Origin: Halichondria panicea
Lineage: Eukaryota > Porifera > Demospongiae > Suberitida > Halichondriidae
Assembly (NCBI RefSeq): GCF_963675165.1
Contig: NC_087385.1
Location: forward strand, 5,008,412-5,072,411
Direction of reading: 5' to 3'
Length of the DNA: 64,000 nt
The position numbers and the translations under genes were made by a program. Below are positions 37,901 to 61,900 of the stretch, piece by piece; the first letter of the stretch is position 1, and each line of letters opens with the position of its first letter. The notes below the pieces were generated by a model. It was given only the letters and a program-made list of their open reading frames with translations, was not told the origin of the DNA and made no database searches.

Positions 37901-40900
37901 AGTTAAGTGCAGCTTTGCAGCTACCGTTCTAGTGCAGAGCTAACTACTAAGTAGAGTAGTTAGTAGCACTCCATGGACAAGTTTGCTACGCATACACTAA
38001 CTGTTCTGAAAGGCACCCCAAGTTAGCAAAGTTGCTATATGAACTTGAGAACGAAGCATTATTTTGCAAACCCACAAATTGCAATCCAAGAAAACGTGGC
38101 TATATAGAAATGATCAGCAGCTGTAACACTCTACACACACACAGACACACAGACACACATGCACCGTATACCTCTCTTGCGCAAGCGCACACCGAGGCAG
38201 TAAAAAGTTAACTTTGCATGGCCTAAAGCTATTAATTTGTTCTCGGTACATTGAAGGTCCTTCAATCGTGCATAACAAAATTTGATCTAAATAGGTAGTC
38301 AAAAGGCTACAATGCCCTTTTAAATGTACCTACCTAACTCAATTATGAGCACTCAAAGTTAGCTAGCATTCTAGTAAATTTGGCGACGGAAAATTGGTAG
38401 AAAGGTATTTAATAGTATGCAGCTCTAGTATACGTGGCCGATAATAGGAGGTCTTAAAACAGCAAACTGAGTTGTGCGACTTGCCAATGGGTGTGATGAG
38501 GGGTGTGGTCAAACTGAAAGATATGATGAGATTGAACAAGACCAGGTTCCAGGCATAGTGGACTCCGTACAGGAAGTTGAAGTTTGCTGCCTGTGTGTGT
38601 GTGTGTGTGTGTGTGTAGTGTGCATGTGTGCATGTGTGCATGTGTGCATGTGTGGGAGGGTATAATTATGATTACGACTGCCATATACATGTACGTAGTA
38701 TTCACTAAAGCATGACTATAAGCATGAGGGTATTTTTTACTAGGGTACAGTTACTGAGGTAGCTTCGACTCCAGGCAGCTTGCTTTGATACGAGGCTATT
38801 ATAGTTTAGCATAGGATGCTAATTATGAGTTGCGTATTCTTAAATTGTGCAAACATTACGTATCTTGCACGGTGTATTTGGCATCTATAATACAACATCA
38901 ATGACATTGCTTTTTTTGGCAGTTATAAATTTGGCGATATTCGGTAAAATTCGCCAAATCGCCAAAATTGTATGCAAGAGAGCATTCAATTTATTTGCAA
39001 GCAAACTCAGTGTATACTTACAACTGGTCAGTTCTGGCTGCCCCCCAAGCTAGGTTTTCAATACGTTTGCTACGGACAAATGTGGCAAAATTAGTCAATA
39101 GATTCGAGATAGGGTCGCTTTTTAGCAGCGGCTATTTTCCGAAATGCCGCCACCACGCTAATTCCGGCCAAACGGCACTGTCCCAAGGGTGACCGGATTA
39201 ACGAGAGTCTACTGTATATGAGATTAGGCCCACATTTTAATTATAATAGGCAAGTGCATGCCAACAGCTACCACTTGGTGCATCAATGGGGAAATTTTCA
39301 CTCAGGAATGCTAGATGTGTACATGCATGCATGGTCAATAGGCCTTGCCCAATTATGCTAGCATAATTTTGAGACTAATAGCACGGTGCGGTGGAGCATT
39401 GAGCATTATGCCAGCCTAATAGGCAAAAAATATTAGCCTAGTAGGCAATTTTTACCAAATTTTAGTAGAAAGTATGATTTTATAGAAGCACTATAGCCTC
39501 AATAGCACTCGTAATGCTAATACTGAGTATATACGTATGGAAGGTGCTATAGTAGTACTACTAGATCAGTTAACTTTTTTCTCTTTCACCATAGTTCCTT
39601 AGAATATTATATAGAAGCTTTTGTGATGTTGCAGTATTTTATTGAGACTAATGGGTAAGAATTAAAGACTAATAGGTACAATACATGAGGCTTGGCCATG
39701 GAGACTAGACTAATAGACAAAATTTTGAGCGGGCAAGGCCTAATGGTCAATAGATAACCTGTTTAGCTAAGAATGCAATTAAAAATCAGGTGAGCAGCAT
39801 GGCATGCAGGTATATAGTATAAGTAGTGTTCCTGCAGGTGTATATAGACCACAGCTATATAGACCCTATTGTCCACGCATTGTATAATGTAGTGTAGATC
39901 TAGACAAGATTTCATGGTCTTTAGTAAAGGCTAATTTTTACTCGGATGGAAGGTTTAGTAAAAGCATGAAGGTACGTATGTACTAAAAACATGAGGGTAT
40001 TTAGATAGCTTCGAATCCAGGCCGCTTGCTTGATTCGAGGCTATTATATACTTACCCTGTGACATACAAATTGACTAAGTAGGCCAATATCGGAACGATA
40101 TATATAATTATAATAATTTTATAGTGTAGTTGTGCCAAACGAATTTACTGTACAATACGAAACCTCCTGAATACCAGTCGAATCCAGAGAGCAGCCTGCA
40201 GCTGGATTTGAGGCTAACCAATCACCCTTGCGCTTTCCTCATGTTTTTGCTGCTAAGCATTTACTTATAATCTATACTCTCACATATTTAGCTAGTATAT
40301 AAATCCTCATGCTGTTACTAATACCCTCAAGCATTTACTAAATTCCCTCATGCTTTGCAAATATCGATCTCCAAAACATTATGCTGTTGACAAGTATTAT
40401 TTTGACACAAACGGCACCCTGATTAAGATAAACAGGGTATGAATCTACTTGTGTATACGTGCATCAAAGAGGAGCAGGAATGCAACCCAATAAAGAGAAT
40501 CATGCAGGAGTATCCGACACTCTAGCAAACGCACAAAGCTATAAATGTTTTCTCGTGGGAGCGTCATACTGTGTATATAGTTATCGTAACAATCGCTAGT
40601 ACATGAATACACAAGTGAAAATCACCTGATATCAGGTGTGTCAGAGGAGGTACGACAGGTGCGGTGCAGCTCAAGCAATTAGCCTTTGATTGAGCAATAA
40701 TTATCCACCCACGTTGTATGTTTTTGCTGAGAGCAATCAGAGGCTAATTACTTTAGCTGCATCGCGCCTGTCGTACAAACAGAGAAAAGGCTAAGTAAAC
40801 TATCTGTCCAGCCAGTTCCTAGATGTGGCACTTCCCTGCAAAGATAGAACAGTTTGAAATGAACACAGGCAAACCCACTGGCACTGCCAATCCTTATGTA

Positions 40901-58900: not shown

Positions 58901-61900
58901 TTCATGGATTACCCTGACAATGTATTCACTACATGCATAAACTTTGATCAATTGGAGTTAGACAATCCGCTACCAGTACCAAACAATGATGTTGGCGATA
59001 CAGTGTTTCTAAACTTTTACGAATCACAAATAAGGATTGCTGCATTAAATTCTCGATTCTTCGTAAATCCACCATCCCCGATTTTATCACAGGAAAATGA
59101 TATTGATGAAGGTTCGTTTTGTGAGTACAGTCAAGATTTATCAGTTGACTACCAATATAGTTGTTTACACAAATACACTGCAACTACTGAAACAGTTGAA
59201 ATGGTGTTGAGTAACGTAGCTGACAGTAAATTTTCCTCGCACCCTGTCCACATTCACGGTCATTACTTTCATGTACTACACGTTGGCTACCCAAGCTACA
59301 ACGCTACAACGGGAAAGATCATCGCAAGGAACCAGGATCTCAATTGTGCCTCCAACGATGGATTTTGCGATAAGGGTGTGTCATGGTCTTCAGGAGCCCC
59401 ACCCCCATCTTCTTGTCTCGAGTCCGGTACTTGCCCTCTAAAGGACACGATAACTATTCCCAGTGGTGGGTACGTAAGGGTGCGATTTGCTCGCAATAAT
59501 CCAGGCTGGTGGCTGCTCCATTGTCATATTGAAACTCACTTTTTAGATGGAATGGTCATTGTCATCAATGCTACATCTGCCCCAGGAAATATTCAGATAC
59601 CTGACAACTTCCCCCGCTGTGGGCACTTCAGCTCCTCTACCCAACCCACTACTCAACCCACTGAAAAAGAAGACACTACATGTAACTGCCAGAACTCAAC
59701 GATTGGTCTAGCTATTGTTTGCGGTGCTTTGCTGCTAATGCTCATAATCGTGACTAGCGTTTTGGTATTAATGTGTTTGTGGTTTGATGCTTGTGGTTTG
59801 AAGCAGAAGAAGCAAGCTGAGACTGACAAAGTGTTTCTAGTTCCACAGGAAAATGATAAAGAACATGAACAAGTTCTATAGATCTATGTTAAAAAATGTC
59901 GTATCCAGAAAATTTAATATTTTATAACCGAGAGTATTGATTTGATAGTGATGAAGTTAATTCAATTGCGATATTCAAAAGACATTCATGGTAACACTTA
60001 TTGTAAGTTGTCTGGAAACCAGAACTGTAATTGTTGTTTCCTAAGGTGGTCTAAGGTGAATTCTGGTGGGTTTAGGGTTGCCTTTGAAAACATTTTATAT
60101 TTGTCCATACATACTCAGTCATGCGCATACGTACATTTTCTCTAGCAGGGAGATATCCCCCTTTCCCCCTGTATGATGATTAATATTGCTTTCGCTGAAT
60201 TAACGCACACAAAAGTATACACTACCTGAAAAATTATCGTCTCATACAGACATAATGTGAAGTTGTGTATTCTTAAATTGTGTAAAGCAAATATTATAGA
60301 TAACTGGGGTAATGTATAGTTATATATTCCTGCATGATAGGAACTGGCTAGCTACAGCATACATGTATATAGATACAAAAAGCATCATCAACGTTTATCC
60401 TACAACACAACAGCACATAATATTATAACTAGCCAGATCAATACCACTCCATTAAAAGAAAAGACTGCACTAATTACTTACTTAAATCCGCAAAAACGTC
60501 TCTAATAATCAACCCACAAAAGTTTATACCCTCGAAATATACCCGCTGTACGGTAGCTTTATTCCTTGTGTTGCTATTCCGTAAGTCCTTAACACATACG
60601 CACCACACACACGCACCACACTCCACACACGTACCTTATTAAGAGCATTCTCCCTCTGTCTCCTGGTCTTGGCTCTGGCCCTCCATGCTAGGTACACAAG
60701 GAGCTCTGGTATCCGCAGCAGGTCCAGTCCAGTCCGCACAAACACAGCGATGATTGCATAACTCACAAAGAAAGCCCCGTTGTTGGGGAGGAACACACAC
60801 CTGGAGGGAAGAAATAATTATTGTTGATTTAGTAGCAAGAAATATTGTCCTTCATGAATCCTGAGCCGTTTTGCTTGCTACATATATATTATTTGTTACG
60901 CTTAGATAACACAATTTCAATGCAAAATACAGGACATACTGTAGTCTAGATTGAATGGCTGTCTCCCCGTCCAGTGCCAGTTCCGCCAGCGCACTCAGAC
61001 TGTGTGTGTGAGTGTGTCGATGTGAGTGAGTACAACAGACACCACTCTATCATTGCATATTAATTAAGACTATACATGTACATATTTAGGAAACAGAATG
61101 TAAGAGTGACTGAGTGCAGTGAAGGAGTGTGCCATACGTATTATACGTATACGTACCTGGTCATTCCAATTGAGGGCAGTATAATCACCATCAGCACTAA
61201 GAAGATGTACGTCTTTCTCATGATGGTCTGCTCGCGAAATGACCTGTGAGAAGAAGGAGCAAGTATATTGTACACCTAAATTAGTACACTGCAGAACAAC
61301 GGTGAGAATAATCATAAGCCGTTGATAAATAAAGCGCAGTATATAGGATAGGGGGCACATGTAAAGTGCATCGTGAAATTCTATCCTCAAAGAATAGAAC
61401 CTACTAATCCACATTTTATACCTAACCCATATCTATTAAGCAATAGAGTACAATTATAAACACACACTTTAAATGTGCCATCAGATAAAGCAACCTCTGT
61501 ATATATGCAGAGGAGGTACGACAACATCATGTGCGTGTACTGTGGAATGTCAATTAACGTGCAGCAAAGATGTTGATGGTGGGCATGACCGTTATCATTC
61601 AGATCACACCCACAGTACTTTTCACTGCTGTTAATTGAAATTCCATAGTCCACGCACGTGATGTTGTCGTACCTCCTTTGTATAATATGTAGTAATCATG
61701 TATAATAATGTGGCATACTTCAATTACTGTTACAGTACACCACCCCATACATGGTCCAGTGAGCCTCAAGGTAGCTGGTCCGGGAGACAATGAGGGGGAG
61801 GAGGGAGGAACAGAGGAGGAGGAGAAGCGTGGAGACAGAGATTTTGGCCAGTTCTCCACCAAACGCTGTGTGGAGGTCCTGAGAGAATAAGCTGTTAGTT

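Follow-up and report, generated by a model that had tools for sequence, protein, structure and literature searches.

The 64,000-nucleotide window analyzed here (C9:5008412-5072411) comes from the Halichondria panicea assembly that we searched, which comprises 131,455,214 bases in 39 contigs. It holds the C-terminal half of a gene for a TMEM63-like protein and, inside one intron of that gene and on the opposite strand, four copies of a laccase gene (Table 1). Our model of the host gene was drawn up by eye, with splice signals and homology as guides, using the window and the neighboring 10 kb. It has 22 exons on the minus strand, one of them 41 bp long, and runs from 69507 to 34920 when the numbering of the window is carried past 64000 into the neighboring DNA (window-continued coordinates). 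The model amounts to 2,514 bases and 837 amino acids in one open frame with a single stop at its end. The gene extends about 5.5 kb past the window end, and its first ~390 residues are encoded there; we considered and rejected a TMEM63 gene without an N-terminus, as the missing residues are found just past that end.

The predicted host protein aligns with TMEM63B (8ehx) over residues 32-718 in a phmmer search (E=4.5e-120), and Pfam places RSN1_TM, PHM7_cyt and RSN1_7TM along it in that order, all over the cut-off. By its domains and core alignment the host belongs with the TMEM63/OSCA channels, and channel activity is predicted. The initial annotation had called this a working channel gene, a description that the intact 837-codon frame and the conserved domains make plausible, and to which they lend their support. 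Family and protein searches find only this one TMEM63 locus in the assembly. RSN1_TM (C9:5076519-5076725) and PHM7_cyt (C9:5075197-5075382) each have their sole match to the right of the window end, RSN1_7TM has two matches, one on either side of intron 17, and with the whole protein as query 20 of 20 listed matches fall at the host locus on the minus strand. All the pieces listed follow one another in order along a single strand of a 7.05-Mb contig, and a reading of the host as two genes was rejected on the grounds of this single locus and collinearity.

The laccase copies occupy intron 17. In the model, exons 17 and 18 join in phase 0/0, with RQRENALNK at the end of one followed by AANFNFLYGVHYAW at the start of the other. 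The TMEM63B alignment crosses this junction with one gapped residue, and RSN1_7TM spans it as one stretch (residues 400-674, 4.2e-43). Because the alignment is continuous at the junction apart from that residue, homology needs no extra coding exon between exons 17 and 18. Earlier proposals that the two exons join in phase, that the family match runs on across them and that everything between them is one intron are all upheld by these results, the two exons taking their places in an in-frame 22-exon gene and the sequence between them running from GT to AG with no N. The accompanying statement that most other introns are shorter than 2 kb holds for the introns of the host gene, which are those we counted: the median length of the 21 is 171 bp, and the 20 besides intron 17 measure 54-3,782 bp, all but the longest of these (19 of 20) being at most 1,473 bp. 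All four laccase copies lie wholly between exons 17 and 18, the position expected of nested genes.

Table 1. Features of the TMEM63 locus, listed in the direction of host transcription and followed by the contents of intron 17; positions above 64000 are window-continued coordinates
Feature	Position	Strand	Remarks
TMEM63 exons 1-11	66225-69507 (past window end)	-	model
TMEM63 intron 11	62443-66224	-	3,782 bp, second-longest TMEM63 intron
Second nested gene	62791-64000, frame on to 64503 past window	- (host strand)	single exon, in TMEM63 intron 11
TMEM63 exon 12	62384-62442	-	model
TMEM63 exon 13	62216-62322	-	model
TMEM63 exon 14	61751-61878	-	model
TMEM63 exon 15	61157-61243	-	model
TMEM63 exon 16	60940-60999	-	model
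TMEM63 exon 17, 5' side of large intron	60635-60800	-	in frame; acceptor ...CTCCAG, donor GTACGT; RSN1_7TM and TMEM63B match
TMEM63 intron 17	38591-60634	-	22,044 bp, GTACGT...CACAG, no N
TMEM63 exon 18, 3' side of large intron	38485-38590	-	own donor GC, not GT; TMEM63B alignment continues
TMEM63 exon 19	37227-37400	-	model and genomic matches
TMEM63 exon 20	35626-35753	-	model and genomic matches
TMEM63 exon 21	35411-35494	-	model and genomic matches
TMEM63 exon 22 and stop codon	34920-35174	-	model and genomic matches
Laccase copy 1	41541-43820	+	intact, 759 aa (amino acids), single exon; Pfam Cu-oxidase_3, Cu-oxidase, Cu-oxidase_2
Orphan of copy 3/4 upstream region	44331-44997	+	~89% to 52498-53192 and 56867-57547; no laccase copy found directly behind
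Laccase copy 2	46698-48959	+	single exon, TGA at codon 45; one TGA also by genome search
Dispersed repeat, ~590 bp	49223-49813	+	3' side of copy 2
Laccase copy 3	53218-55491	+	single exon, TAA at codon 646, shortly after HCHIETHF copper-site motif; one TAA also by genome search
Laccase copy 4	57596-59881	+	intact, 761 aa, single exon; Pfam Cu-oxidase domains

The nested genes are recognizable as laccases by several lines of evidence. In copies 1 and 4, the two of the four that were sent to Pfam, the three Cu-oxidase domains follow one another in the order Cu-oxidase_3, Cu-oxidase, Cu-oxidase_2, and in an alignment all four copies carry HWHGMH, YHAHLG, HPVHIHGH and HCHIE[ST]H, which we take to be the four histidine copper motifs of laccase. 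In the PDB, copy 1 matches best to chains that bear the name laccase (top match 9gly, E=2.4e-50), many of them presumably fungal. By eye, copy 1 begins with a hydrophobic, signal-peptide-like segment and has another hydrophobic segment near its C-terminus, which suggests a membrane-anchored surface enzyme. The initial annotation had reported four laccase open reading frames (ORFs) on the strand opposite to the host; the number of copies and the strand stand, but only copies 1 and 4 keep a complete frame, copies 2 and 3 being interrupted by one internal stop each. Copies 1-3 share a TATA-like motif near -80 and an ATTAAA 42-46 bases past the stop, neither of which was seen in copy 4; these motifs were counted with no chance control and are not used here as evidence of expression.

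Outside the array, a family search and a search of the assembly with copy 1 find 11 further laccase places and three small fragments. The closest of these paralogues is on contig C8, at 46-47% amino acid identity, and is likewise a single frame. It is one of five outside laccases that each consist of one long open frame (C8, C4, C7, C13 and C15); stops interrupt a C7 copy at 4.44 Mb, a C4 copy at 4.10 Mb and a C7 piece at 1.52 Mb, and three others (two on C7, one on C3) have an intron-like break ahead of the first copper motif. Intronless paralogues on five contigs thus stand beside intron-split ones on C7 and C3, and, the comparison being unrooted, the array may or may not descend from a retrogene. 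Around the C8 paralogue, nine ORFs put to Pfam gave one Fn3-like match over the cut-off and one cobalamin-binding match below it. Laccase genes on C7 (L035:1380-3143 and L033:2337-3170) carry ahead of the oxidase a domain that looks PLAT-like by eye, present as three tandem units in L035.

The four nested copies are 86-97% identical to one another at the protein level, and the best match outside the array reaches only 46-47%, so the divergence among the copies is far more recent than their separation from any other laccase found. The distance of the nearest outside paralogue also argues that the cluster grew inside the intron. Across the six pairs, synonymous divergence (dS) is 0.045-0.161 and the ratio of nonsynonymous to synonymous divergence (dN/dS) is 0.36-0.47, with third codon positions varying most in the four pairs that were counted. 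Similarity is unevenly distributed along the genes: over the first nine 150-base windows, copies 3 and 4 agree at 97-100% in eight and at 94% in the remaining one, then fall to 86-95%, and copies 1 and 3 agree at 92-99% over their whole length.

The flanks of the copies add to this history. Upstream, copies 3 and 4 are alike for more than 1 kb, and copies 1-3 share a downstream flank, whereas between copies 1-2 and copies 3-4 the match starts only ~35 bases before the ATG and the sequence farther upstream differs. The sequence upstream of copies 3 and 4 has a third genomic match, the orphan between copies 1 and 2, which is likely a remnant of a rearranged duplication unit; as it has no laccase behind it, at least one unit has seemingly been lost or rearranged. 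A dispersed repeat makes up part of this upstream region, at about 52067-52478. The ~590-bp repeat behind copy 2 has relatives on the 3' side of copy 3 (55774-56379) and, inverted, in TMEM63 intron 19 (36617-37170), and matches at least 54 places in the genome, of which at least 40, counting the repeat itself, extend over the greater part of the query; these counts are lower bounds, as 40 of 3,862 candidates were scored. The repeat copies at 36617-37170 and 37919-38203, in opposite orientation, flank TMEM63 exon 19. The initial annotation had left it open whether the array was inserted into the channel gene or expanded inside it. The nesting it described is confirmed, and expansion inside the gene is favored by the similarity of the copies, the duplicated intergenic sequence and the remoteness of all outside paralogues.

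TMEM63 carries a second nested gene, which lies in intron 11 on the strand of the host. Read from its first ATG, this single-exon gene encodes 560 amino acids (64473-62791 in continued coordinates), with several hydrophobic segments by eye, and a Pfam search found no family for it. It belongs to a large and dispersed family with at least 80 matches in the assembly, itself included, most of them single long frames; this too is a lower bound, since 78 of 428 candidates were scored. Its closest relative among the matches listed is 81% identical and is on C14, and many members of the family stand in runs on C5, C8 and C10. TMEM63 is therefore host to intronless members of two unrelated multi-copy families.

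We consider it very likely that the locus is a nested gene cluster, in which a laccase gene in a TMEM63 intron was multiplied where it stood and the host is spliced across the result. A founding intronless laccase gene would have entered the intron on the opposite strand, its arrival, which we infer, being either by retro-mediated or by DNA-mediated duplication. Tandem duplication together with gene conversion or unequal exchange may then have multiplied it in place, swelling intron 17 to 22 kb, and stop codons are now found in two of the four copies. The host is presumably transcribed through both nested stretches, with the introns removed by splicing, and the laccases would be separate transcription units that, if expressed, fire from their own promoters on the opposite strand. 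The arrangement probably serves no special function. Several points weigh against this account or complicate it. Because the upstream sequences of copies 1-2 and copies 3-4 differ, the array is not a plain series of whole-unit duplicates. The observed dN/dS range is compatible with constraint on only some of the copies, and the internal stops of copies 2 and 3 could be assembly errors. The direction of movement may also have been the reverse, out of the intron to C8, as the comparison has no outgroup to root it.

Errors of assembly might go further than these stops, with an array from elsewhere joined into TMEM63, or with near-identical units collapsed or duplicated to give a false copy number. 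Assembly is difficult for tandem units that resemble each other by up to 97% across 2.6 kb, two copies are each one stop away from an open frame, and the intron contains a 146-bp pure AC run. However, both halves of TMEM63 are found only here, in the correct order and orientation, and the intron between them contains no N. Its edges, at 38591-40340 and 59898-60634, do not match the array besides short repeat matches, so that the array is flanked within the intron by sequence of another kind, and a chance misjoin would need to hit exactly one intron of one gene. We regard such an artefact as unlikely. We find it harder still to believe that the array has broken the channel, leaving exons 1-17 and 18-22 as separate transcription units. 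An intron of 22 kb, in a gene whose median intron is 171 bp, with several opposite-strand genes inside it, might hinder read-through, and intron 17 holds 14 AATAAA motifs on the host sense strand, a number obtained with no shuffle control. Yet a severed gene should decay, and here the frames are intact on both sides, the splice sites at the junction are GT and AG, and the part from exon 18 onward would begin in the middle of the 7TM region.

Transcriptional interference between the host and the laccases is possible, and the nesting might even be functional, with antisense laccase transcription tuning TMEM63 or with the locus co-regulating a surface oxidase and an osmo- or mechanosensitive channel. 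The literature points both ways. In human cells, interference with the host by nested genes on the same strand has been shown (PMC3192792), and the nested members of the TipE cluster are coordinately regulated (PMC3240667), but the TipE genes correlate poorly with their own host (PMC3240667) and mammalian nested pairs are described without expression divergence (PMC8467205). The human interference, having been shown for same-strand genes, would in any case bear more on the intron 11 gene than on the laccases. As half of the laccase copies are broken and copy 4 is without the TATA-like motif of the others, a functional role for the nesting seems improbable to us. It would be a far-reaching speculation that TMEM63 is a tolerant landing site for two unrelated intronless families, and that the antisense array sets the amount of full-length channel and so links a surface oxidase with a mechano- or osmosensor; we give this very little credence.

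A nested gene cluster, as we read the locus, is less surprising than the initial annotation suggested, because intronless genes on the opposite strand of an intron are common in animals, the internal genes typically being short (PMC8467205). Among simple pairs, the internal gene lies on the opposite strand in 74.3% of the 296 from human and 77.8% of the 248 from mouse, which makes same-strand nesting, as in intron 11, the minority orientation in mammals (PMC8467205). Like the intronless nested genes of mammals and Drosophila (PMC8467205, PMC3192792), the laccases have a single exon and lie opposite to their host; unlike simple mammalian pairs, with one internal gene (PMC8467205), this host contains a four-copy array and a same-strand gene in another intron. 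Among sponges, nested genes number 2,432 in the glass sponge Aphrocallistes vastus (12.4% of genes), 3,358 in Amphimedon and 5,032 in Sycon. The other two of the five sponges tabled have 83 and 0, figures for which the authors blame annotation method, and sponge glassin is itself a single-exon nested gene (PMC10282587). The available portion of that paper describes no laccase array in TMEM63.

Clusters of genes within one intron are likewise known, and the present case fits closely with them. In insects, a cluster of GMC oxidoreductase genes occupies a large intron of flotillin-2, as described in PMC3240667. There, as here, an oxidoreductase family is clustered in one big intron of a gene for a conserved membrane-associated protein; the enzyme family and the host differ, however, and the insect cluster is common to several insect species, whereas the present copies are young and half of them broken. 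The TipE genes, in the last intron of CG18675 in insects (PMC3240667), are similar in that several related genes share one intron of a host that is conserved and single-copy. In that system the nested genes encode channel subunits and are kept across insects; in ours the channel is encoded by the host, around nested copies of recent origin. What is particular to the sponge locus is the combination of a young, half-broken array with double nesting in one gene. Our literature searches found no paper joining the subjects of nesting and tandem clusters within introns and none on TMEM63 nesting in sponges, and among the matches listed for sponge laccases no title concerned this locus.

The locus is a clean example of intron growth, in which the expansion of a gene family within one intron would have taken that intron to 22 kb in a gene with a median intron length of 171 bp. 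Gene birth, copy loss and host tolerance could be traced at this locus in related species. It also carries a warning for annotation, as TMEM63 would probably come out in pieces from a pipeline that does not allow nested genes.

Other genes surround the host. Tail-to-tail with TMEM63, coding-looking plus-strand frames extend from 26074 to 34245, ending ~0.7 kb from the TMEM63 stop. The first of them (ORF 26074-26394) has a HIF-1-alpha-type basic helix-loop-helix match over the Pfam cut-off, and four further ORFs of the region gave no Pfam match. No transfer RNA genes were found in the window. A minus-strand frame at 24374-25048 contains several ankyrin repeats by Pfam, and at the other end of the host an 826-codon serine-rich frame on the plus strand (L025:7159-9639) stands head-to-head with TMEM63. 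Elsewhere in the assembly, the best 5 of 77 matches to the papain family all have the catalytic cysteine (CGSCW or CGGCW), and one of these five, compared with the PDB, finds cathepsin L chains at 1.8e-85 or better, ahead of silicatein alpha at 5.8e-73.

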